A stretch of DNA of 50,043 bases, taken from Bdellovibrionales bacterium (lineage in GTDB: Bacteria; Bdellovibrionota; Bdellovibrionia; Bdellovibrionales; UBA1609). Where the stretch lies: positions 1 through 50,043 of the forward strand of contig JAIBAM010000018.1 of NCBI GenBank assembly GCA_019695175.1, read 5' to 3'. Positions within the stretch are counted from its first letter, which is position 1; every line of letters begins with the position of its first letter. The notes beneath the pieces are model-generated. The model saw only the letters and a program-made list of their open reading frames with translations, was not told the origin of the DNA and made no database searches. Position numbers and translations under genes: made by a program. Below are positions 28,848 through 46,903 of the stretch, piece by piece.

Positions 28848-29261
28848 ATGTGAGCCTCAATTCGAGAACGTTTCCAGTGAAATATCGGTCGCATTTTTAA
28901 GTCTGTTTTGTTTATTCTAAAGGCTTCTTCTATTCACCAATAAACCAATTTGTACCCAGTTACTCAGCCCTAAGTTTCGAGCTAACGATGAGAGCAACTC
29001 TTGGCCAGACTCCTCTTTGGCATTAGTAATCATACCGTGCAAACCGTCCCAAAGACTGTCTTCTTGTATTTTTGACTCATTCAAAGACGCGGTCAGTTTG
29101 TTACAAATATTCAGATATTTTTTTGCTCCTCGGTTTTTGAGGCACTGACTTAATTCTATTTGATTTGTTTTATCCAACTGTTTCCTTATACGAGTGACAA
29201 TTCGTTCTCTGTCACTAAGCTCATTTTTGGGGTCTTTTTTGGGGGTCCTTTTTGGCTCGAA

Positions 29262-29311
29262 GGCAAGAGTAGTTTACAATAAGATCGGAAAGAGAAGTTT
29301 ACAATAAGATC
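29262..29311 (-). repeat. 25-bp tandem duplication in the transposase
   Basis: Units 29262-29286 and 29287-29311 share 23 of 25 bases, including AGTTTACAATAAGATC exactly. On the coding strand the unit encodes DLIVN-F/Y, a core strand of the DDE domain, so the duplication repeats that strand and shifts the frame. Confidence 0.9.
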
Positions 29312-30060
29312 CCGTTTTTGAGCCCGGGTGGTTCCCATTTTATGAAATTTTACGAAGACATCGGCCTTCCAATTCTTTCTCCATAGCGGCGAATCCTTTT
29401 TTATCCGTCGTTGATTTTATCCACCGTTGAGGCGAAGTTGAGCATCTCTTGCTTAACCTCAGAGGACATGGACTTTAATTTGGCTGCAACCACATAATGA
29501 ACTCCCAAGGAATCCATAAGGTCCAAATGTTTTGGTTAAACATGGCTCTATCTGCCACAAGAAATACTTTTCTCAGTTTAAACTTTTCTTTGTGGTTTTG
29601 AACCGCAACAAGTAAGAGTTTTACCCTCATAGGTATCGCCGAGCCGATAACTTTTGACCTTGTTCCATTCTTGATAAAGTTCATAACCTACAGGGATACC
29701 TCCTTGTGCGGTTTGTAGGGCGAGCACAACTTGAGTTTCTTTAAACCGACAGTTTTTACTAAAGCCCAATCTTCTTAACTCATCTTCTGAAAAACTCTCA
29801 AAGTGAAGCGTGGTGACGTCACGGGGTTTGACTTCATAAAACTCCATGGGGTCAAAAATGGGCAGGAGTCGGTTCTAATTTTCTTTTATAGCTGCGATAA
29901 AGGCCGGGGCTGACTTTAATATGATTTCAAGTTCGTTTTCATTGGTGGCTGTGCCGAGACTACGAATAGTTTTATGGGTGGGTTTTTCCATTTTTTCGAA
30001 TGGATTTCACAATAAGTACGGTGGTTTTACCATGGGTTTTTTAATTTGTTTTACAAACAT

Positions 30061-30394: not shown

Positions 30395-31744
30395 ATGTTT
30401 ACCTCTTTGATTCCCCATTGTCGAGACAGTCATGTGCATTGGTTAGCTACCGGTGAGGTCTCTCTACAACTCAAACTTTCTGGTCTGAGATCTCCAAGTG
30501 ATGTTTTTAAACTTCAAATTAAGCCGCATCATTTTCGTCAAAACTGGCTTCTTGGATTTGGATGGGATCAGAACTTTTGGCTTCAGAAAGAGTTTCCCCA
30601 TCGCAAAGTTTTAGATGAATGTTTTGGTTTTGATTTTCCTGTGGCCTTTACTCGAAAGGATGGTCACGCTCTATGGGTAAATACCACTGCCATGAAATTG
30701 GCGGGGGCAAAAAACGGCATAGTGTGGGAGTCTCTCAAAGATAATTTCTTAGGAGGACGAATTGAACGAGAACAAAGTGGCATTCCCTCCGGGGTTTTTA
30801 TTGATGAGGCTATGAAGTTTATTGATCAGATGATTCCTCAGGCGACTCCCAGTGAACAGCAACGATCCTTGTTGAAGGGAATGAATATTTTTAATCAAGC
30901 TGGGTTTACCCATGTGCGGGATATGACTTGTAATGAAGATCAATTCCAGTCAGCCATTCATTTGGAACAAAGTGGAATATTGACATTGGCAGTGGAGCAA
31001 TTTTTTGAAGTGTCTCCAAGACAAACTTTTTCCCAGGCTCTTGATTTGGCTGTAAGGGCTAAAAAACAAAATTTGAGACTCATTCGTCCTTTAGGGATTA
31101 AAGTTTTTATGGACGGAGCTTTGGGGTCAGAAGGGGCATGGCTAGGTTGTCAATACAAAAGCGGCTCCGGTCATGGGTTGACTCTGCTTTCTTTAGACTC
31201 CCTTGGCGAGATTTTTCATTCCACCTGGGATCAAAATTTACAATTGGCAGTTCATGTTATTGGTGATGAGGCCGTTCACCAAGTGATACTAACTTACCTC
31301 AGGATTAAAGAAGAACGATCCCGTACGAGAAAGTTTATTGGTCCATTGCATTTGGAACATTTTGAACTGGTTCGAGAAGAAACACTTCTTTTAATGAAGG
31401 GTTTAGATATTCACTGTCATTTGCAACCTTGCCACTGGCTTTCAGATCACAAATGGTTGAATCAAAAAATTAATTTAAATAAAATTTGTTTTTTTCCTTG
31501 GCGAAATTTACAAAACCTTAATCTCCCCTTCAGTTTTGGGAGCGACAGTCCCATTGAGTCCCCTAGCGTGGGGCAAAATTTATTGGCGCTAGAACAAAGT
31601 TCCCATGCCGGAGTTAAAAGCTTATTAGGAGATCCGTTAATTTATCATTCCCACCCAGATGTATCTTGGGTGCCCAACTGTTACACTCACTTTGCAGATG
31701 GAGTTCCTACGGAAGTGGTGTTTGATGGTGTCCACTTAAAATAA
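30395..31744 (+). CDS. Amidohydrolase family 3 protein (YtcJ-like), short form
   Basis: 449 residues. Metal and catalytic positions of the amidohydrolase TIM barrel are seen: H13-x-H15 in DSHVHW, K236 in KVFMDGALGS (the lysine that is carboxylated in the family), H287 in AVHVIGDEAV, H322 in LHLEHFELV and D384 in FGSDSPIE. Relatives are usually about 530 residues long. This one begins almost at the HxH motif, so the N-terminal strands of the small beta-sandwich domain are missing, and the C-terminal part is short as well. No SD precedes the ATG. It may be a compact variant or an N-terminally reduced gene; substrate unknown. It converges on the pilus-type operon. Confidence 0.85.
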   Translation: MFTSLIPHCRDSHVHWLATGEVSLQLKLSGLRSPSDVFKLQIKPHHFRQNWLLGFGWDQNFWLQKEFPHRKVLDECFGFDFPVAFTRKDGHALWVNTTAMKLAGAKNGIVWESLKDNFLGGRIEREQSGIPSGVFIDEAMKFIDQMIPQATPSEQQRSLLKGMNIFNQAGFTHVRDMTCNEDQFQSAIHLEQSGILTLAVEQFFEVSPRQTFSQALDLAVRAKKQNLRLIRPLGIKVFMDGALGSEGAWLGCQYKSGSGHGLTLLSLDSLGEIFHSTWDQNLQLAVHVIGDEAVHQVILTYLRIKEERSRTRKFIGPLHLEHFELVREETLLLMKGLDIHCHLQPCHWLSDHKWLNQKINLNKICFFPWRNLQNLNLPFSFGSDSPIESPSVGQNLLALEQSSHAGVKSLLGDPLIYHSHPDVSWVPNCYTHFADGVPTEVVFDGVHLK

Positions 31745-31769: not shown

Positions 31770-32846
31770 TTAAAACCCGTATTGGGTGCTGGGGTTTTGC
31801 GAACGGGTTTCCTTTTGATTGAGGGTATAAATTCCAGCTCCTAAGACTCCGATAGAAATCCACAACCATTTGTTTTTCCATAGTGACTGGGGGGAGGTTG
31901 GAGAGGGAGTTGAAAGTTTAGATAAAGGAATTGTCTTTAAAGACAATTCCTTTAAGGAAGAATGATTTGCGTTCGATATAATTTTAGGAACTTGTAGTGT
32001 CTTTCCTTGGGGACATTGGTCTGAAAAAAATATTTTATAATTTATATTTGGTGTGGAGTTTTGTGCCCAACTCCAATGATCACAATCGCCATCTACCCAG
32101 GAAATTGGGTTCGGGTTCCAATTAAAAAAATCTTCCCATGTTACAATTCTAGAGAGAGGGGGGGCATGATCAAAGACTAAGGTGAAGCGATGCTTTAAGT
32201 TGTCGCGGGGGATTTGTAGGGGTTTAATTGATGGATAGGGATTCCCATCAATCAAAAGATAGCGCACCATCGGGAATATATTTTCTAAAAGAATATTTTC
32301 TAAGGATTTAGCATTAAATTGAGATGCACTAAATTCCTTCCAGAGCGGAGGTGGGAACAAGCTTGGGTCCAATTTCAAATGGAGACCTCGACGAGCTTTT
32401 TGCACTAAGTCCCTCTTAGCTTCTGGTTGGTACTCCAATTGGGCGAGTCGAAGGTAGGCGTAGGAAAATATTTTTCTTTCTTCTCTGCGCCAATCCTCAG
32501 TTAACTCCATTTCAGTGAGTTGAAGTAATAATTTTTTTGCCTTTAAGAGATTGCCATTCAAATACTCTTCTTGAGCTTTTTCAAAGCGGACTTGGAGTTC
32601 TTTTTCTGTCGCTAAAGGAATTCGATTTTTAAGCCACCAGGCGGAAAAACTTTCGAGGCCTTCATTGCTGTGGGCTTTTACATAGGCGTTGAAATCGGAT
32701 TCATTAGCTGTTCCTGCTTGTATTAAAACTACGTTTTCTTGAGCTTTTAAGTGGGGAGTCAGCCCTAAAATAATAAGTATAAATTTGATTTGGAACATTC
32801 TGGTCAGTCGCCCTCTGTTTCTTTTTTGTGATTTGTTACCAATCAC
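31770..32846 (-). CDS. Exported membrane-anchored protein of the pilus-type operon
   Basis: 358 residues from a GTG at 32846 that overlaps the stop of the CpaB-like gene by four bases; an internal ATG at 32798 would start directly at the signal peptide (MFQIKFILIILGL...KAQ). Residues about 85-180 are helical and TPR-like (EKAQEEYLNGNLLKAKKLLLQL). A central beta-rich domain contains several Trp and two cysteines (WVDGDCDHW, FSDQCPQG). A membrane helix lies at about 330-345 near the C terminus (KNKWLWISIGVLGAGI). Family not recognised. Its position as last gene suggests a role in assembly of the structure. Confidence 0.75.
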   Translation of the reverse strand: MIGNKSQKRNRGRLTRMFQIKFILIILGLTPHLKAQENVVLIQAGTANESDFNAYVKAHSNEGLESFSAWWLKNRIPLATEKELQVRFEKAQEEYLNGNLLKAKKLLLQLTEMELTEDWRREERKIFSYAYLRLAQLEYQPEAKRDLVQKARRGLHLKLDPSLFPPPLWKEFSASQFNAKSLENILLENIFPMVRYLLIDGNPYPSIKPLQIPRDNLKHRFTLVFDHAPPLSRIVTWEDFFNWNPNPISWVDGDCDHWSWAQNSTPNINYKIFFSDQCPQGKTLQVPKIISNANHSSLKELSLKTIPLSKLSTPSPTSPQSLWKNKWLWISIGVLGAGIYTLNQKETRSQNPSTQYGF

Positions 32847-33361
32847 TCATCATCCTCATCATATATGATTTGAAATGGCCTTGTTTTTGATCCTTTTTCA
32901 ATTTTTATACCAGTTGGTGCGGTTTCCTTTATGTTGCGAATAACAACATAAAAGGGTCCCCCTTTTTGTACCACTTGAGGCGCGTGCTCTATTGGTAATA
33001 ACACTCCAAATTGACTGGGATTTTTAGGAGCTCGCAGCATTTTTACCGCCCTAGCAACAAGAAGCGAAGGGGCTCCTGTTGAGCTTTCTTGGGCGTATAG
33101 ATCTACAACGCCGTGATTTCCAAAAATTGAGTCCACACTTTCAAAATTTTGTACAGCAATGGGGACTAGAACCTGACCGGGGGGAATATAAGTGTCCAAA
33201 TTAAGATCCTCAGATTTTTCTGTTTCTACCATTGAGGAGGGACGATTTAGGATCAGAACAAAAACTGAAATAATAATGACTGCAATGGAAATCATCATAG
33301 GTTTTTGATTGTCTTGGGTCGATAAATACTTTTTAAATAGAATAAATTTATTTTTGACCAT
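32843..33361 (-). CDS. CpaB/RcpC-like pilus assembly protein (tentative)
   Basis: 172 residues from the ATG at 33361 with SD AAGGA five bases upstream; a longer frame to 33451 would run through the preceding mini-prepilin gene. One membrane helix lies at about 22-42 (MMISIAVIIISVFVLIL). The following segment YIPPGQVLVPIAVQ and NHGVVDLYAQ resembles the SAF-like region of CpaB, which handles the periplasmic part of Flp pilus export. The protein is shorter than typical CpaB. The C terminus ends in an acidic DEDDE run. Its operon position among prepilin-like genes supports the call. Confidence 0.6.
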   Translation of the reverse strand: MVKNKFILFKKYLSTQDNQKPMMISIAVIIISVFVLILNRPSSMVETEKSEDLNLDTYIPPGQVLVPIAVQNFESVDSIFGNHGVVDLYAQESSTGAPSLLVARAVKMLRAPKNPSQFGVLLPIEHAPQVVQKGGPFYVVIRNIKETAPTGIKIEKGSKTRPFQIIYDEDDE

Positions 33362-33521
33362 GATATCCTTTGTGCGAAGCGGGAGTTTCCCAGCGATTTT
33401 TTTGTGCCACCTTTTGTGCATTTTCATGTAACCGAACCATAAAAACTGCAAAACTAAACAGAATTAATATAATCCAAAGTAGTTCAATCAAAATTTGGCC
33501 GCGATAAGCTGTGGATACCAT
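33348..33521 (-). CDS. 57-residue prepilin-like protein
   Basis: A small gene easily overlooked. Its ATG at 33521 has a GAGGAG eight bases upstream. Residues 1-8 (MVSTAYRG) form a short leader ending in Gly, followed by QILIELLWIILILFSFAVF. This gives G8 at the cleavage site, Glu at +5 of the mature part and a long hydrophobic helix, the class III prepilin or TadE-like pattern. It overlaps the gene before by 34 bases and the CpaB-like gene after by 14. It probably joins the same pilus as a minor subunit after processing by a prepilin peptidase. Confidence 0.75.
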   Translation of the reverse strand: MVSTAYRGQILIELLWIILILFSFAVFMVRLHENAQKVAQKNRWETPASHKGYHGQK

Positions 33522-34231
33522 TTTTTATTCTCCTCAAAAAGACTGGCTGTACATTGTCCTGTAAAAAAAAGTTTTTGTTCCGGTAAAATAAATTTTAAAA
33601 TGGAATCGTATTTAGTAAATAAATTCACCTTATACCGTAAGGTTAATTTTTGTTGTTGTTTGAAATTGGATTGCAGGAGGTAGTCCGGTGAGGGTGACTC
33701 TGGGGGAGATTCAACCACGGCTAGTGAATTCACTTTACTGTGATGGTGTAAGGATTCCATTTCAATTTTTGATTTTAATTTTTGTACTTGGGAAAATGCT
33801 TGCGACCGACTTTGGGTGGCCTGTAGTAACCAGCTTAATTGCAGATGTCGCAATTGTTTTTGTTGTATTTGGACTGCGGTCAAACGGACTTGAGCGGCAA
33901 GGATGGCTGGGGGATCCAAGCTGATTTGCGCCGCTTTCAATTCGGCCTCGGCTACTTTTCTTTTAATTCGTAGGGTTTGAGCTCGAGAATTGAGTTTTAA
34001 AAGTTGTTTAAGTTGTTTTCCCATGGATTCTTGTGCAACCCAAATGGCTTTTCTGCATTCTGATGAAATGAGATTCAAGTTTCCGATGGCAAGAGCCAGT
34101 GCCGTAGTGCCACCGGCGATAATCAATAGGACGGGGATTAATAGAGCCAGTTGGGTCAACATCATTCCTTTTTGGCATTTAAGTTTAAGTGTTGCAGAAG
34201 AGTGAGTTCCAATTGCCCAAATCCTTTCCAT
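33488..34231 (-). CDS. TadE/TadG-like pseudopilin with long helical domain
   Basis: 247 residues. A basic leader ends in KCQKG, followed by MMLTQLALLIPVLLIIAG, like the TadE/TadG pattern G-x-x-x-x-E-x-A-L-x-x-P but with Gln at the usual Glu position (+5). Residues about 70-165 form a Lys/Gln/Ala-rich helix (coiled coil likely), and the C-terminal part is beta-rich. The ATG at 34231 keeps the leader and is used here. An ATG inside an ATGA overlap with the upstream stop (34165) would remove it, so the start is uncertain. Confidence 0.7.
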   Translation of the reverse strand: MERIWAIGTHSSATLKLKCQKGMMLTQLALLIPVLLIIAGGTTALALAIGNLNLISSECRKAIWVAQESMGKQLKQLLKLNSRAQTLRIKRKVAEAELKAAQISLDPPAILAAQVRLTAVQIQQKQLRHLQLSWLLQATQSRSQAFSQVQKLKSKIEMESLHHHSKVNSLAVVESPPESPSPDYLLQSNFKQQQKLTLRYKVNLFTKYDSILKFILPEQKLFFTGQCTASLFEENKKWYPQLIAAKF

Positions 34232-34512
34232 TTAATTTCTCCATAACCTTTTGTTGGACCGGATGAAAAGAGCCTAATATGGGTTTCTGTCGTTCCTACG
34301 GGAATGAGGTTCACTTTTTGGAGTGCTTCTTTTTTACAATCAATTTGATTTTCCGCTTGGCAGATGAGAGCTTGATAAAGAATATGATTTAACCATAAAT
34401 GGGCCAGAGTGAGTCGGGAGATTTGTAAAATTCCCCCAGTCAAAGCTGTCAGTAGGGTCAAACCAACAAGATATTCAATCAGACCGCTACCCTGTTGAGA
34501 TTTAATTTTCAA
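34162..34512 (-). CDS. Prepilin-like protein with class III leader
   Basis: 116 residues. The leader MKIKSQQG ends in Gly8, with S9-G-L-I-E13 giving the +5 Glu, then a hydrophobic helix (YLVGLTLLTALTGGIL). The mature part is small, with a cysteine pair (CQAENQIDC) that could form a disulphide. The ATG overlaps the upstream gene's stop by four bases (ATGA), so the two are translationally coupled. Probably a minor pilin of the Flp/Tad-type system. Confidence 0.8.
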   Translation of the reverse strand: MKIKSQQGSGLIEYLVGLTLLTALTGGILQISRLTLAHLWLNHILYQALICQAENQIDCKKEALQKVNLIPVGTTETHIRLFSSGPTKGYGEIKWKGFGQLELTLLQHLNLNAKKE

Positions 34513-34829
34513 TGTTGGGAGCCCTGAGCGGCTCCATTTATAAAATCGCTCAAATCTCTTTTTTTAACAGTCCGTTCATCAAAGGATTCTGTACGTACAG
34601 TTTTATTTGAACCTTGAATTGCATAAAGTGCATTGGCAAAACGAGTTTGCACGACATAACTTAGGGACCTTACCACAGCGATGGTTGAAACAGCCATTAA
34701 AGCCACCAGGATAAGATACTCTATTAAACTCTGTCCTTTTTGTTTATTTATAATGATCCCTGTTTTGGCATTCAATAAAAGGGAGTGTCGGTTGACCCAG
34801 ATCCATGGGTTCCATTTATCAAATTTCAT
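34509..34829 (-). CDS. Flp-type major pilin candidate
   Basis: 106 residues. A long leader (32 residues) ends in KQKG, followed by QSLIEYLILVALMAVSTIAV, the Flp prepilin signature with Glu37 at +5. The C-terminal part is polar and short. GGAG in GGATGGAGAT precedes the ATG. As first gene of the minus-strand operon it is likely the main or founding subunit, although its mature size (74 residues) is larger than many Flp pilins. No ATPase (CpaF) or platform genes are in view, so these must lie elsewhere if the pilus is functional. Confidence 0.8.
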   Translation of the reverse strand: MKFDKWNPWIWVNRHSLLLNAKTGIIINKQKGQSLIEYLILVALMAVSTIAVVRSLSYVVQTRFANALYAIQGSNKTVRTESFDERTVKKRDLSDFINGAAQGSQH

Positions 34830-42153: not shown

Positions 42154-43716
42154 TTAACTTTGACCACCCACGGGCAATTCACTGGCTGGATTTTGGTGAA
42201 ACTCCTTGCCGTCAAAACCAACTAACTTTTTTTCTCCATCCAATACTGTGGCCATATGGACGGGTCGAGTCCAAATTGAAAACAAATTTTTCATGGTTTC
42301 ATTCATGTAATCAGGTTGCATTTCTACCCCTTCAAATAGATGGGTAAGAAGGAGTTCTCCTCGGTTATTAAAGTTGGCATCCGCAACTGAAATAATGGGC
42401 TGGCCAAAATTAGTGAGTTGAAAGAGAAATTTTTTCTTAATCTCTGGAAAGTCTCTGGTGTCGACTTCAAATTGTTGGGTGCGCTTATTAAATTTATAGA
42501 CAAACATCTTATTTTTAACACAAAAATCTTCGGTTAGAAATTCATCAATAAATGTGACATCATTATAGTTTCGACGGACTTCAAATATTTTTTCTCGACC
42601 ACGACCTAGTTTTTGATCCCAGGTTTGTTTTGTGGTGAGGTTATCACATTCCTCCCATTCTTTACCAAACCGCCCCTTATTCCAACGATCCTCAATATCT
42701 CTAAATAATTCTATACCTACTTTGTAAGGGTTAAAACTTGTTGGCGACATAGCCATTGTTCCGCTGTGGCGATCGGCAAAATCCACAATTTCTGCATCGG
42801 ACATAATTCTTTCAGTCATAATTTTTGAATGCCAGTAGGAGGCCCAACCTTCATTCATTATTTTGGTCATGCCTTGAGGTGCAAAGTAATAGGCTTCTTC
42901 GCGGATGATGGACATAACATCCTGTTGCCAAGGAGCCAAAGGAGCATGGTAAATTAAAAACTGCAGGATATCTTTTTCGGGTTTTGCCGGGAATACCGGC
43001 GTTGTTTGCTGAGTTGAACGTTGTAATTCCTCTGCTTTTTTTAATAAGCTCGGCGGGTTGATAAAACTTTCCATGTACTCGCGATGAACAGGAAGGCGAC
43101 CGGGTATAAATTCTTTTAATTGAGTTTGAGACAAACTCTTTTGTGGAGAGTTTTCAACATCAAACTTAGGGTCTTCAAGACCTATTTCGGGGACTTGGAT
43201 TTTAATGTGATTGTAGGCACTGTAGCGATCAATTAAATTTTCCAAACTGAGACATTTATCAATAAATTCTTCAACGACTTCTTGGCCAAAGCGGTCGATG
43301 TAACGCCGAATTCTTGTGGCATGATTGGCCATTTCATCCATCATTTTGCGATGGGTGGGGGAAAACCACTGATTGTTTTTAAAAAAATCACAATGCCCAA
43401 ATACATGGGCCATAACTAATTTTTGATCTACGAACTCATTTCCTTCCATTAAATAGGCGTAACAAGGGTCATTATTGATAACTAATTCATAAATTTTGGA
43501 AAGGCCGTATTCATAACTTTTAGAGAGATGTTCGTACTCCATTCCAAAACGCCAGTGGGGATAGCGCACTGGAAATCCACCATAGGAGGCTATTTGATTG
43601 AGTTGGTCATATGTAACAATTTCAAAAATGGTTTCAAAAAAATCCAAACCGCACTGTCGTGCTGCTTTTTCAATTCGAACCCTTTCCTTCTCCAGTTCGG
43701 CGGTGAGATTGGCCAC
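42154..43716 (-). CDS. spoVR: SpoVR/YcgB family protein
   Basis: 520 residues matching SpoVR/YcgB. The start carries YPHWRFGMEYEHLSKSYEYG, followed by MAHVFGHCDFF with potential metal ligands, WFSPTHRKMMDEMANHATRI and MNEGWASYWH, all conserved blocks. The biochemical role is unknown. In non-spore-formers it is encoded together with prkA and the DUF444 gene and is linked to stationary phase or nitrogen stress. Here it starts two bases after the DUF444 gene, completing a three-gene operon. Confidence 0.95.
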   Translation of the reverse strand: MANLTAELEKERVRIEKAARQCGLDFFETIFEIVTYDQLNQIASYGGFPVRYPHWRFGMEYEHLSKSYEYGLSKIYELVINNDPCYAYLMEGNEFVDQKLVMAHVFGHCDFFKNNQWFSPTHRKMMDEMANHATRIRRYIDRFGQEVVEEFIDKCLSLENLIDRYSAYNHIKIQVPEIGLEDPKFDVENSPQKSLSQTQLKEFIPGRLPVHREYMESFINPPSLLKKAEELQRSTQQTTPVFPAKPEKDILQFLIYHAPLAPWQQDVMSIIREEAYYFAPQGMTKIMNEGWASYWHSKIMTERIMSDAEIVDFADRHSGTMAMSPTSFNPYKVGIELFRDIEDRWNKGRFGKEWEECDNLTTKQTWDQKLGRGREKIFEVRRNYNDVTFIDEFLTEDFCVKNKMFVYKFNKRTQQFEVDTRDFPEIKKKFLFQLTNFGQPIISVADANFNNRGELLLTHLFEGVEMQPDYMNETMKNLFSIWTRPVHMATVLDGEKKLVGFDGKEFHQNPASELPVGGQS

Positions 43717-43718
43717 TT

Positions 43719-44813
43719 TTATCTCCCTTTTCCCAGAAACTCTTTGATAGATTGCATGATTTTATCGCGACTCTCAATTTTGCTTAAAGTGAGTTTTTGT
43801 TCATCGGGCAAACCTTTTTCCAAATCTTTCAAAAATTGCCCACTCCCATATTTGCTTTCCACTTGACCATAACCAAACATATTAACGTTGGGTAAAAAGA
43901 ATTCCTGTAACATTTTAATACAGAGTCGAGTGTCTTCGCCACTCCAGTTGTCACCATCACTAAAATGAAAGGGATAGATATTCCAATCTGAAAGAGGATA
44001 GTCCTGCTCTATTATTTTTTTACAAAGTTTGTAAGCCGAACTAATAAGCGTTCCGCCGGACTCACTGGTGGAAAAAAATGTTTTTTCATCCACTTCTTTG
44101 GCTGCGGCATCATGGATAATAAAACGAGTGTCCAGCCCTTTGTAATTACGCTTTAACCAAGTGTTAATCCAAAAACTTTCTAAGCGCACAATTTCTTTTT
44201 GTTCATCCCCCATGGAGCCAGACACGTCCATCATATAAATGACTACAGCATTAGCGTGGGGTTTTGTGGTGCGACGAAAAGTCCGATAGCGGAAGTCTCG
44301 ACGAATGGGAACAATGATGGGGTTTTCAGCTTGATAAGTTCCACTGGAGATATGTCGTTTTAAAGCCTCTTTGTAGGAAGCTTTAAAATGCCGTAGACTT
44401 TCGGGGCCTACAGGGGCTCGGCCAGTGTATTTTGTCACCAAAGAGTCAACCGCACGATTTCCCTTTGGGTTAATTCTTGGCAATTGCAATTCTTCGCCAA
44501 GTATATCGGCCAACTCTTCAAATGTAATGTCCACTTCGAGTAAGTGTTCTCCGCTGGAGTTACCAGCTTTGCCGGCTCCTTCACCGTCACTATCGACTCC
44601 GTCCCCAGGTTGACCTTGGCCTTGACCAACGCCACCCATTTGTTTGGGGCCATATTTAAATCTTGGTGTGTCTATGGAAGGAATGGGAATTTTGACAAAA
44701 TCTTTTTCCCGTTTTCCAATCATTTCTCCATGACTAATGTATTTTTTAAAATTTTGGCGAATTCGACCCCTAACGATATCACGAAATCGATTGTGATCTT
44801 CGCGGATTCCCAT
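43719..44813 (-). CDS. yeaH: DUF444 / YeaH family VWA-like protein
   Basis: 364 residues. The N-terminal part is charged, with a Gly/Gln/Ser-rich linker at about 60-90 (GGVGQGQGQPGDGVDSDGEG). The C-terminal half contains a von Willebrand A-type fold with the metal-binding D196-V-S198-G-S200 motif (MMDVSGSMG). It is found with PrkA in most genomes and probably forms part of the same signalling complex. It lies two bases after prkA and two before spoVR, so all three are co-translated from one message. Confidence 0.95.
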   Translation of the reverse strand: MGIREDHNRFRDIVRGRIRQNFKKYISHGEMIGKREKDFVKIPIPSIDTPRFKYGPKQMGGVGQGQGQPGDGVDSDGEGAGKAGNSSGEHLLEVDITFEELADILGEELQLPRINPKGNRAVDSLVTKYTGRAPVGPESLRHFKASYKEALKRHISSGTYQAENPIIVPIRRDFRYRTFRRTTKPHANAVVIYMMDVSGSMGDEQKEIVRLESFWINTWLKRNYKGLDTRFIIHDAAAKEVDEKTFFSTSESGGTLISSAYKLCKKIIEQDYPLSDWNIYPFHFSDGDNWSGEDTRLCIKMLQEFFLPNVNMFGYGQVESKYGSGQFLKDLEKGLPDEQKLTLSKIESRDKIMQSIKEFLGKGR

Positions 44814-44815
44814 GA

Positions 44816-46903
44816 TTATTTTTTCTCTTTCACGTCACCACGAGCAAAAATACTTGCTACGTAATGAAGCACATCCGTCGCAGAAATTTCATCGTATCCG
44901 AACTCTTTAATCAAACGTGTTTTAACAATATCAATTTTTTCTTGAGTGTCCTTGTCCACAACCGAGGATACAAGAGAGGTGAGCTTTATCGTGTCTTTTT
45001 GATCTTCAAAAAGTTTAAGTTCTAAAGCTTTTTGAAGCCTCTCATTGGTTTTGTAATCAAACCGTTTTCCTTCAAGAGATAAAGCTCCAATGTAATTCAT
45101 AATTTCCCTGCGAAAATCATCTTTTCGAGATTCAGGGATTTCTATCTTGTCTTCGATGGAACGCATGAGTCTTTCATCTGGCTCTTCGTCACGACCGGTA
45201 AATTGGTTTCTTACTTTTTCTTTTTGTGTATAAGCCTTTACATTATCAATGTAATTTCCACAAAGCCTCTGTAACGCACCTTCATCCGCAGAAATGGCTC
45301 TTTGAACTTCGGCTTTAATTACTTCTTCGTATTCTTGCTTAACCACGCTGAGAAGCTCTTTATAGTCGCCACGAATTTCTTCGTTGGCAATTAATGAGTG
45401 GTGCTTGAGCCCGCCCTCAAGTTCGTTCAATACCATAAATGGATTCACAGAGCCTCGATTCATTTGTTGGGCGGTGACAATGGCATTGGAAATTTTATCT
45501 TGTATGTACCGGGGGGAGATCCCTTCTAACCCTTCTCTTTTGGCGTCTTTTCTAAGCTCTTTAATATTGTCTTCAGTATAATTAGGTAATGACTTACCAT
45601 CATAAAGTTTTAGTTTTTGCAATCGTGTGAGATTTGCTTTTTTAGGTTTTTCCAATCGAGACATAATAGCCCACATGGCTGCCATTTCAATAGTGTGGGG
45701 AGCTATACTCACTCCTCTGAGAATTCGACTGTTAAAATCCTTTTTATATATTTTGATTTCGTCTTTAAGCTTGGTGATATAGGGGATATCAATTTTGACC
45801 GTTCGATCTCTTAAAGCCTCCATAAATTCATTATCTTGAAGTTTTCGGTATTCGGGTTCGTTGGTGTGACCTATGATGACTTCATCAATATAGGTTTGAG
45901 CAAATTTTTTAGGTTTCACCCGGTGTTCTTGTGAAGCTCCGAGTAAATCGTACAAGAAAGCCACATCCAGTTTAAGGACCTCAACAAACTCGATCATTCC
46001 CCGGTTGGCTACGTTAAATTCCCCATCAAAATTAAAAGCTCTTGGATCTGAGTCAGATCCGTATTCTGCAATTTTGCGGTAGTTTAAATCACCGGTGAGT
46101 TCAGTACTATCTTGATTTTTTTCGTCCTTAGGTTGAAACGTTCCCACACCGATTCGATCCGACTCAGACAAAATAAGACGGCGCACTCTAACATGTTGTA
46201 AAACACGGTTGAGATCACCGCCGTATTTTTCCAAGAGCGATTTAAAAATGTAGCGACTGGGTGGACAGAGCTCCCCTTGAATATGAATGCGAAAGTCAGT
46301 TTTATTGCCTCGGTTGAGTTCGTCAATGATGGATTGGCGTATTTCCACTGGGATGAGGAGAAGGGGTTCTTCGTGCATAGGGCTTGGAAAAACGCGCACT
46401 CCTTTTCCAAAAACGTCCTCATGCTTACCATCTTCATCAATCCACTCAAAGGTGTAAAGGGCACCAGAATCTGAACGGGAATATCTTTCTAATCCTTGTT
46501 TGAGCAGTCTGCAGATGGTTGATTTGGCACTTCCTACAGGTCCGTGTAAGAGTATGACTCTTTTTTCAGTTCCATATCCTAAGGCTGCAGCCCTTAGAAC
46601 ATTGACTAATTTCATTAAAGGAAGGTCCGCACCAAAGACAGCGTCTTTGCCATCTTGATCCAAGTCATCGAAAAATTTATAATGGACTACTTGTTTTTTG
46701 ACATCGACGTACTCAACGGTGCCTTTCTCAGTAATCATATCAAACATTCTTTGAAAGGCGTTACGAGTGACTTTAGGATTTTCCCGAACCATATTTAGAT
46801 AATCAAAAAAAGACCCCACCCAATTTAGCTCATGAAAGCGGTTTGAGCCTTGTAAACTGGAAATTAGTTTTTCAAATTGATTTCGGTTGGAATCTGTCGC
46901 CAT
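44816..46903 (-). CDS. prkA: PrkA serine protein kinase / AAA+ protein
   Basis: 695 residues. The N-terminal AAA+ domain holds Walker A GPVGSAKS at 121-128 and a Walker B region near [13 protein letters not shown]. The C-terminal PrkA domain (from about 430) includes the [14 protein letters not shown] block. Family proteins phosphorylate or remodel targets during starvation or sporulation. An excellent SD (AAGGAGGACCC) precedes the ATG, and a promoter-like sequence lies about 80-110 bases upstream. First gene of the prkA-yeaH-spoVR operon. Confidence 0.96.

Follow-up and report, generated by a model that had tools for sequence, protein, structure and literature searches.

Our analysis of a 50,043-nt stretch of contig JAIBAM010000018.1 from a Bdellovibrionales bacterium (hereafter the window) revealed six consecutive minus-strand genes (window 31770-34829) that probably form one half, pilins and alignment protein, of a second, platform-sharing Tad-like (type IVb/IVc) pilus. 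This pilus would include a minimal minor pilin and be distinct from the one encoded by the main tad locus of the same genome. Direct support for this reading comes from the order and conservation of the genes, their prepilin motifs, a predicted RcpC-like fold and linkage with a secretin-ATPase pair; the rest of the system we infer. A preliminary description had seen here a compact Tad-like export cluster; its observation was confirmed, and its interpretation was partly supported.

Organization and conservation of the gene set

Read as open frames, the six genes overlap by 4, 70, 34, 14 and 4 nt. All on the minus strand, they encode an Flp-type pilin of 106 aa (34509-34829; G↓QSLIEY); a TadE-like minor prepilin of 116 aa (34162-34512; G↓SGLIEY), whose TTG start overlaps the flp stop; a TadF-like pseudopilin of 247 aa with a prepilin motif (33488-34231); a minimal prepilin of 57 residues beginning MVSTAYRG↓QILIELLWIILIL... 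(33348-33521); an RcpC/CpaB-like protein of 172 aa (32843-33361), with one transmembrane helix and a predicted C-terminal RcpC domain without a SAF domain; and, as the last gene, a 358-aa protein (31770-32846) with a signal peptide-like start and a C-terminal transmembrane-like stretch. The Pfam and NCBIfam cut-offs were reached by none of these six proteins, and promoter and terminator scans at the gene set stayed at chance level. A simple prepilin filter, run over the window in all six reading frames, returned eight matches, namely the four cluster genes in a row and four scattered frames.

The set is flanked upstream by a gene reading away from it, which from its sequence alone we take to encode glutamine synthetase. 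The convergent plus-strand amidohydrolase gene on the other side (30395-31744; PF07969) is not part of the pilus, and a homologue was found in 45 of 89 relative loci, these loci being of unequal length. Overlapping short minus-strand frames at window 29186-29847 are, by their look, presumably a decayed transposase.

Conservation, a stronger test than the motif filter, was assessed by reading the DNA around 89 relative CpaB-like genes in addition to the window. The four overlapping prepilin-type genes reported earlier at 33348-34829 are present as frames at these places, and the order flp, tadE-like, tadF-like, small prepilin, cpaB-like recurs in the loci read from relatives across Bdellovibrionales. 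Wherever more than 1500 nt of upstream DNA was available, the Flp gene was present (85 of 85 loci), and 80 of these 85 also had another prepilin frame mid-cluster. The CpaB-like gene gave one match each in 90 of 98 genomes including this one (71 of 73 near-complete genomes), and these genomes represent nine of the ten families searched. Across the phylum, a family profile of the CpaB-like protein detected members in 132 of 368 genomes, of which 129 belong to the order and three to the same class outside the order, with none elsewhere. The 33 loci that were given names, with L188 lacking a CpaB-like reference and three ending before flp, largely repeat genomes already counted and are not independent of them.

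Flp, TadE-like and TadF-like subunits

The glycine, glutamate and tyrosine of the Flp motif were invariant in 30 aligned rows, and PF04964 was found at E <= 0.1 in all 30 Flp family members, the window member (E 8e-4) falling below the curated cut-off. A profile of the family matched chains of solved structures of Flp, PilA and geopilin. The start codon of the window gene is uncertain, either an ATG with a 32-residue leader or a TTG at 34775. Among the TadE-like members, PF07811 (TadE) was found at E <= 1 in 8 of 29, with a best value of 4.6e-7 and 0.023 for the window member; two cysteines were invariant in the 29 aligned sequences. L192 was omitted from both the 30-row and the 29-row alignment.

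The TadF-like family has an invariant glycine at -1 and two invariant cysteines in 28 aligned rows (L206, L207 (masked stretch) and L213 omitted). The preliminary description had placed a glycine, followed by Glu or Gln at +5, in all four prepilin-type genes; these motifs are present in the window, but the glutamine at +5 of the TadF-like protein occurs in this genome alone. A TadF-like frame was found in 84 loci and its glycine site could be placed in 81; E, D or Q stood at +5 in 0 of 80 relatives, and Gln at +5 was therefore rejected as a family feature. In this count the site of L091 was misplaced, the site chosen by eye being also non-acidic. The glycine site was unplaceable in three relatives (L114, L149 and L178), and the frame was not found in L110, L135, L147, L155, L161 and L172. 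As with Flp, the start of the window gene is uncertain, lying at 34231 or at an ATG at the overlap with the preceding gene, which would drop the leader. PF16964 (TadF) was touched by 1 of 28 members (0.0046), and the window protein drew only a stray T3SS row (0.022) from Pfam and NCBIfam. Its predicted model (mean pLDDT 89) consists of a long helical hairpin and a C-terminal beta part, for which Foldseek returned nothing at E <= 0.001 and no convincing pilin match.

The 57-residue prepilin

The smallest gene of the set, with GAGGAG 8 nt 5' of its ATG, had been noted earlier as easily missed in automatic annotation; it is a real and conserved gene. A fixed rule detected a short prepilin frame close to where the CpaB-like gene starts in 77 of 85 loci with more than 1500 nt upstream, and in 80 of 88 with more than 400 nt upstream. 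Reading the eight rule-failing loci by eye brought the tiny frame to 87 of 88, open in relatives; its absence from these eight was rejected, since seven carry it. L124 was the sole locus among the 88 without a glycine in the small frame. By eye, the tiny prepilins of L099, L100, L122 and L173 (the start codon of L173 not settled) carry Glu at +5, and those of genus g19 (L119, L165 and L168) have Ser, Leu and Gln there instead. Gly at -1, Gln at +1 and Glu at +5 were invariant in an alignment of 32 rows, from which L192 (a near copy of L190) and L210 (G↓FLAIQ, Gln at +5) were left out. In this type of gene set the extra small prepilin measures about 47-100 residues.

Substitution counts were compared between relatives. 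The three pairs among G058, G069 and G071 differed by 3.0, 5.0 and 7.0 synonymous versus 2.0, 1.0 and 1.0 non-synonymous changes, over about 39 synonymous and 141 non-synonymous sites in a gene whose ends overlap other genes. The pair G063/G075 gave 11.5 synonymous versus 12.5 non-synonymous changes (42 and 141 sites), and in distant pairs synonymous sites were near saturation, and changes affected as many as roughly half of the non-synonymous sites. Judged by these counts, the small frame is under purifying selection in close pairs.

The 57-residue protein of the window matched no Pfam or NCBIfam family, and even at E <= 1 no Pfam family was found in more than 5 of 32 members of the small family, the commonest being TadF and TadE. 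The profile of the small family aligned to that of the Flp family over 30 columns (probability 94%), and the counterpart in G071 touched the NCBIfam entries ComGE (0.0032) and ComGD (0.009), far below their cut-offs.

RcpC-like and 358-residue proteins

The CpaB-like partner recognized in the preliminary description is upheld by its predicted structure (mean pLDDT 81.5). Foldseek placed RcpC (9gzr) at the top (E 6e-3, probability 1.00), with nothing at E <= 0.001, and VIA-align likewise ranked 9gzr first, with a Z of 8.5 that lies only slightly above the values of unrelated models, the next entry scoring 4.3. The alignment covered 97 residues (rmsd 3.5, 19% identity) and residues 119-258 of RcpC. 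On this model the protein has an RcpC-like fold without the SAF part; the main CpaB of the same genome contains both RcpC and SAF, so that the SAF part is missing from the cluster protein. By sequence the relation lay below detection: the window protein had no Pfam or NCBIfam match, PF16976 was touched by 1 of 56 family members (0.09) in an alignment using 56 of 90 proteins, pairwise BLAST against the main CpaB gave no result, and the family profile matched no sequence of a solved structure.

A homologue of the 358-aa protein was found in 56 of 98 genomes. The family, aligned from 23 of 28 sequences plus the window member, has a conserved cysteine pair; TPR_11 appeared at 0.0044 in 1 of 24 members and not in the window protein, which had no Pfam or NCBIfam match at all.

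A secretin-ATPase pair linked to the cluster

A CpaF-like ATPase gene lies beside a secretin gene on another contig of this genome (C15:63679-66070), away from the cluster. The ATPase had one match each at E <= 1e-60 in 87 of 98 genomes, the secretin was matched at E <= 1e-12 in 87 of 98, and the two were neighbours in 81 of the 82 genomes having both, in a count whose secretin list omits G043 and the second matches of G018 and G051. The best NCBIfam entry for the ATPase was TIGR03819 (TadA family), at 219 bits against a cut-off of 373; the best rows for the secretin were GspD and PilQ, both below cut-off.

The pair bears on the statement in the preliminary description that no ATPase or platform genes lie near the cluster. 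This holds for this genome, and the absence of a nearby platform extends to eight relatives; it fails for the ATPase in 46 of 83 relatives with both genes, where secretin and ATPase lie 4-15 kb downstream (the ATPase 3.9-14.8 kb from the CpaB-like gene, on the same strand). These 46 relatives span all nine families that carry the cluster. The remaining 37 of 83 have the ATPase on a different contig, and no relative has it at any other place on the contig of the cluster. As many of these 37 assemblies are drafts, fragmentation may account for some of the cases, although in the present genome the separation is not a draft artefact because C15 is 366 kb long. With the pair on another contig in those 37 and in this genome, adjacency to the cluster is not obligatory.

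In G049, G051 and G053 the cluster is followed by a receiver-kinase gene (tested with Pfam in G051, recognized by its first residues in G049 and G053), the secretin and the ATPase, with other genes between in two of the three. From its first residues we take a gene within about 2 kb of the ATPase, both here and in these three relatives, to be a likely aspartyl-tRNA synthetase. This shared neighbour suggests that it was the pilin half that moved, probably in the lineage of the window.

Main Tad machinery and the platform

A search of the genome for cpaF, tadB, tadC and a prepilin peptidase, as proposed in the preliminary description, found all of them, and an absence of Tad machinery was not borne out. 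The ends of two contigs, C8 and C3, each carry part of the main tad locus, which comprises CpaA, three prepilin-like frames, CpaB, a secretin, a CpaE-CpaF fusion and TadB; TadC is on C45. Two PF01478 prepilin peptidase genes were found in the genome, one of them in the main tad locus.

On C45 (L023:12472-17702), TadC is followed by three genes that we take by their look to be FHA-like. A gene for TadC and relatives of these C45 genes were also seen in G029 (L219), about 2.7 kb from an flp3-type cluster and divergent from it. The peptidase of the main locus (L022:2946-3479, on C8) is CpaA/TadV-like, whereas TadV is given as missing from Bdellovibrio genomes in Avidan 2017 (PMC5430801).

The cluster Flp was rejected as the only Flp of the genome, since a motif scan found another in the main locus (C8:3763-3910, on L022) with Ala rather than Gly at -1. 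This protein was missed by PF04964 and by the glycine-based filter, and the detection of a single Flp by PF04964 was thus a matter of sensitivity. Besides that of the main locus, the genome encodes two CpaF-like ATPases, on C7 and C15. The one on C7 (L025:6172-7895) comes after a gene for a 206-aa protein, and no further pilus gene was seen around it; as a guess, it is possibly the counterpart of bd0793.

No TadB/TadC platform gene was found near the cluster in eight relatives searched with PF00482 or in this genome, nor was a TadV or CpaE of its own seen there. Across the eight relatives, frames of about 400 aa contained a pair of PF00482 domains (two such frames per genome, three in G051) and frames of about 300 aa a single one (one in G049, two in the other seven), the latter taken as TadB and TadC. 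Additional occurrences were one frame of 326 aa in G053, two matches in G034 scoring 33 and 24 bits, and weak sub-cut-off matches in G058 and G071. With no platform gene near the cluster, we infer a platform shared with the main system; this conclusion draws on absence, and further PF00482 genes exist at other places in some relatives.

Relation to known pili and to Bdellovibrio flp3

With the Tad/Flp pilus of Aggregatibacter and Caulobacter this set shares Flp and the RcpC fold, and probably also a TadE-like pseudopilin, a TadA-type ATPase and a secretin. It differs in having no TadB, TadC, TadV or CpaE nearby, an RcpC protein without SAF, an extra small prepilin and a TadF-like protein without an acidic residue at +5. 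The Kil Tips of Myxococcus (Herrou 2025, PMC12075869) are likewise minor pilin sets placed away from the motor genes in a predator; they include a large KilN/TadG protein, whereas the largest prepilin here has 247 aa.

The cluster Flp is very likely the orthologue of flp3 (bd3297) of B. bacteriovorus, an assignment that rests on taking the relative G071 for HD100. In G071 the cluster starts at 3,216,034, the best FliA match lies 17 kb on (3,232,822), and candidates for flp1, flp2 and flp4 occur at 106 kb and 2,641 kb. These positions fit bd3297 as flp3, bd3318 as fliA, bd0118/bd0119 and the bd2719-bd2720 gap of Avidan 2017 (PMC5430801). According to that study, flp3 is silent in attack and growth phase, its deletion is viable and it is dispensable for predation, whereas flp1, flp2 and flp4 are needed; flp3 was called not TAD-associated, and the main text, in the portions available to us, does not describe minor pilins, an RcpC-like gene, a tiny gene, a secretin or an ATPase with it. 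About 6-9 kb downstream of this set lie the secretin and ATPase genes, which the numbering of bd3306/bd3307 fits. Capeness 2013 (PMC3818213) names bd3306 ('pilQ') and bd3307 ('cpaF') as neighbours of an RHS gene and, in the passages available, does not tie them to flp3.

Among the papers listed in our literature searches, none joined flp3 with the secretin-ATPase pair or mentioned bd3296 or bd3298-bd3302; bd3297 and bd3303-bd3308 turned up in one paper each. We found no report of a filament of this system. Parts of the set are already in print, and joining them into one unit appears to be new, as we found nobody who had done so; a Tip is predicted for B. bacteriovorus in Herrou 2025 (PMC12075869) and may or may not be the same set. 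A Bdellovibrio kil-like gene map is given in PMC8460266, and a 2025 proteome (PMC12546842), as far as available, names Flp1 as the sole Flp. Bearing on a shared platform, tadC (Bd0470) is reported as needed for attachment (Duncan 2019, PMC6561027).

Proposed assembly and alternative explanations

In the proposed system, a prepilin peptidase would trim Flp, the TadE-like and TadF-like proteins and the 57-residue protein. The TadF-like protein, without an acidic +5, would prime the tip in concert with its TadE-like and 57-residue partners; the 57-residue protein is predicted to be little beyond an N-terminal helix and could act as adaptor or initiator. Flp would then form the shaft. The CpaF-like motor encoded on C15 would drive assembly on a single TadB/TadC platform common to the main system, and the RcpC-like and 358-residue proteins may align the inner-membrane part with the C15 secretin; the filament would exit through a secretin of this type. 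We extend this tentatively to the order: Bdellovibrionales may possess a second Tad-like pilus that has its own shaft, tip, aligner, secretin and motor and no private platform, such that two motors and two secretins would work on one TadB/TadC, and with a tip including a new prepilin family whose mature form would be almost only the N-terminal helix. One platform common to two motor-secretin pairs would be unusual for Tad systems. Given the silence of flp3 during the HD100 laboratory cycle, the pilus seems more likely to be used in settings other than standard predation, such as surfaces or starvation, although this is a guess. If the proposal is correct, the isolated 'silent' Flp gene of a model predator would become part of a conserved machine, the motor and pore belonging with flp3 would be named, and a prepilin family that annotation can miss would be added.

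The same genes might instead supply the main Tad machine with an alternative set of pilin and tip proteins, the C15 pair then serving another role. The main locus on C8 and C3 does have its own secretin, CpaE-CpaF, TadB and CpaB, and in Myxococcus four interchangeable minor pilin complexes are described on one Kil pilus (PMC12075869), but the cluster brings its own Flp and its own RcpC-like gene, contains no evident large TadG/KilN-like gene, and has the secretin-ATPase pair as a neighbour in 46 of 83 genomes; we consider this explanation unlikely. The locus could also be a relict that has lost any present function and persists in some lineages by chance. This would agree with the silence and dispensability of flp3 (PMC5430801), yet open frames and motifs persist in nearly all loci and the tiny gene appears to be under purifying selection in close pairs. 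The partner is moreover transcribed, given that bd3307 is listed with pilus genes whose levels in host-independent strains fall below those of attack phase (PMC3818213), all of which makes a relict highly improbable.

The platform-sharing pilus that we favor also has to be weighed against a pseudopilus for secretion or uptake, comparable to type II secretion, rather than a surface structure. In having no acidic residue at +5, the TadF-like pseudopilin resembles GspK, and the best rows for the secretin include GspD next to PilQ, below cut-off. The Flp-type subunit, the RcpC fold and the TadA-type ATPase nevertheless indicate Tad, and the secretin stands beside that ATPase in 81 of 82 genomes, leaving a pseudopilus rather improbable. 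The Tad-like character ascribed to the cluster earlier is upheld; an export cluster, as it was designated there, is less likely than a pilus.

Elsewhere in the window (42154-46903), genes for SpoVR, DUF444 and PrkA (Pfam) stand in a row, and an operon with SpoVR is discussed among attack-phase core genes in Avidan 2017 (PMC5430801).
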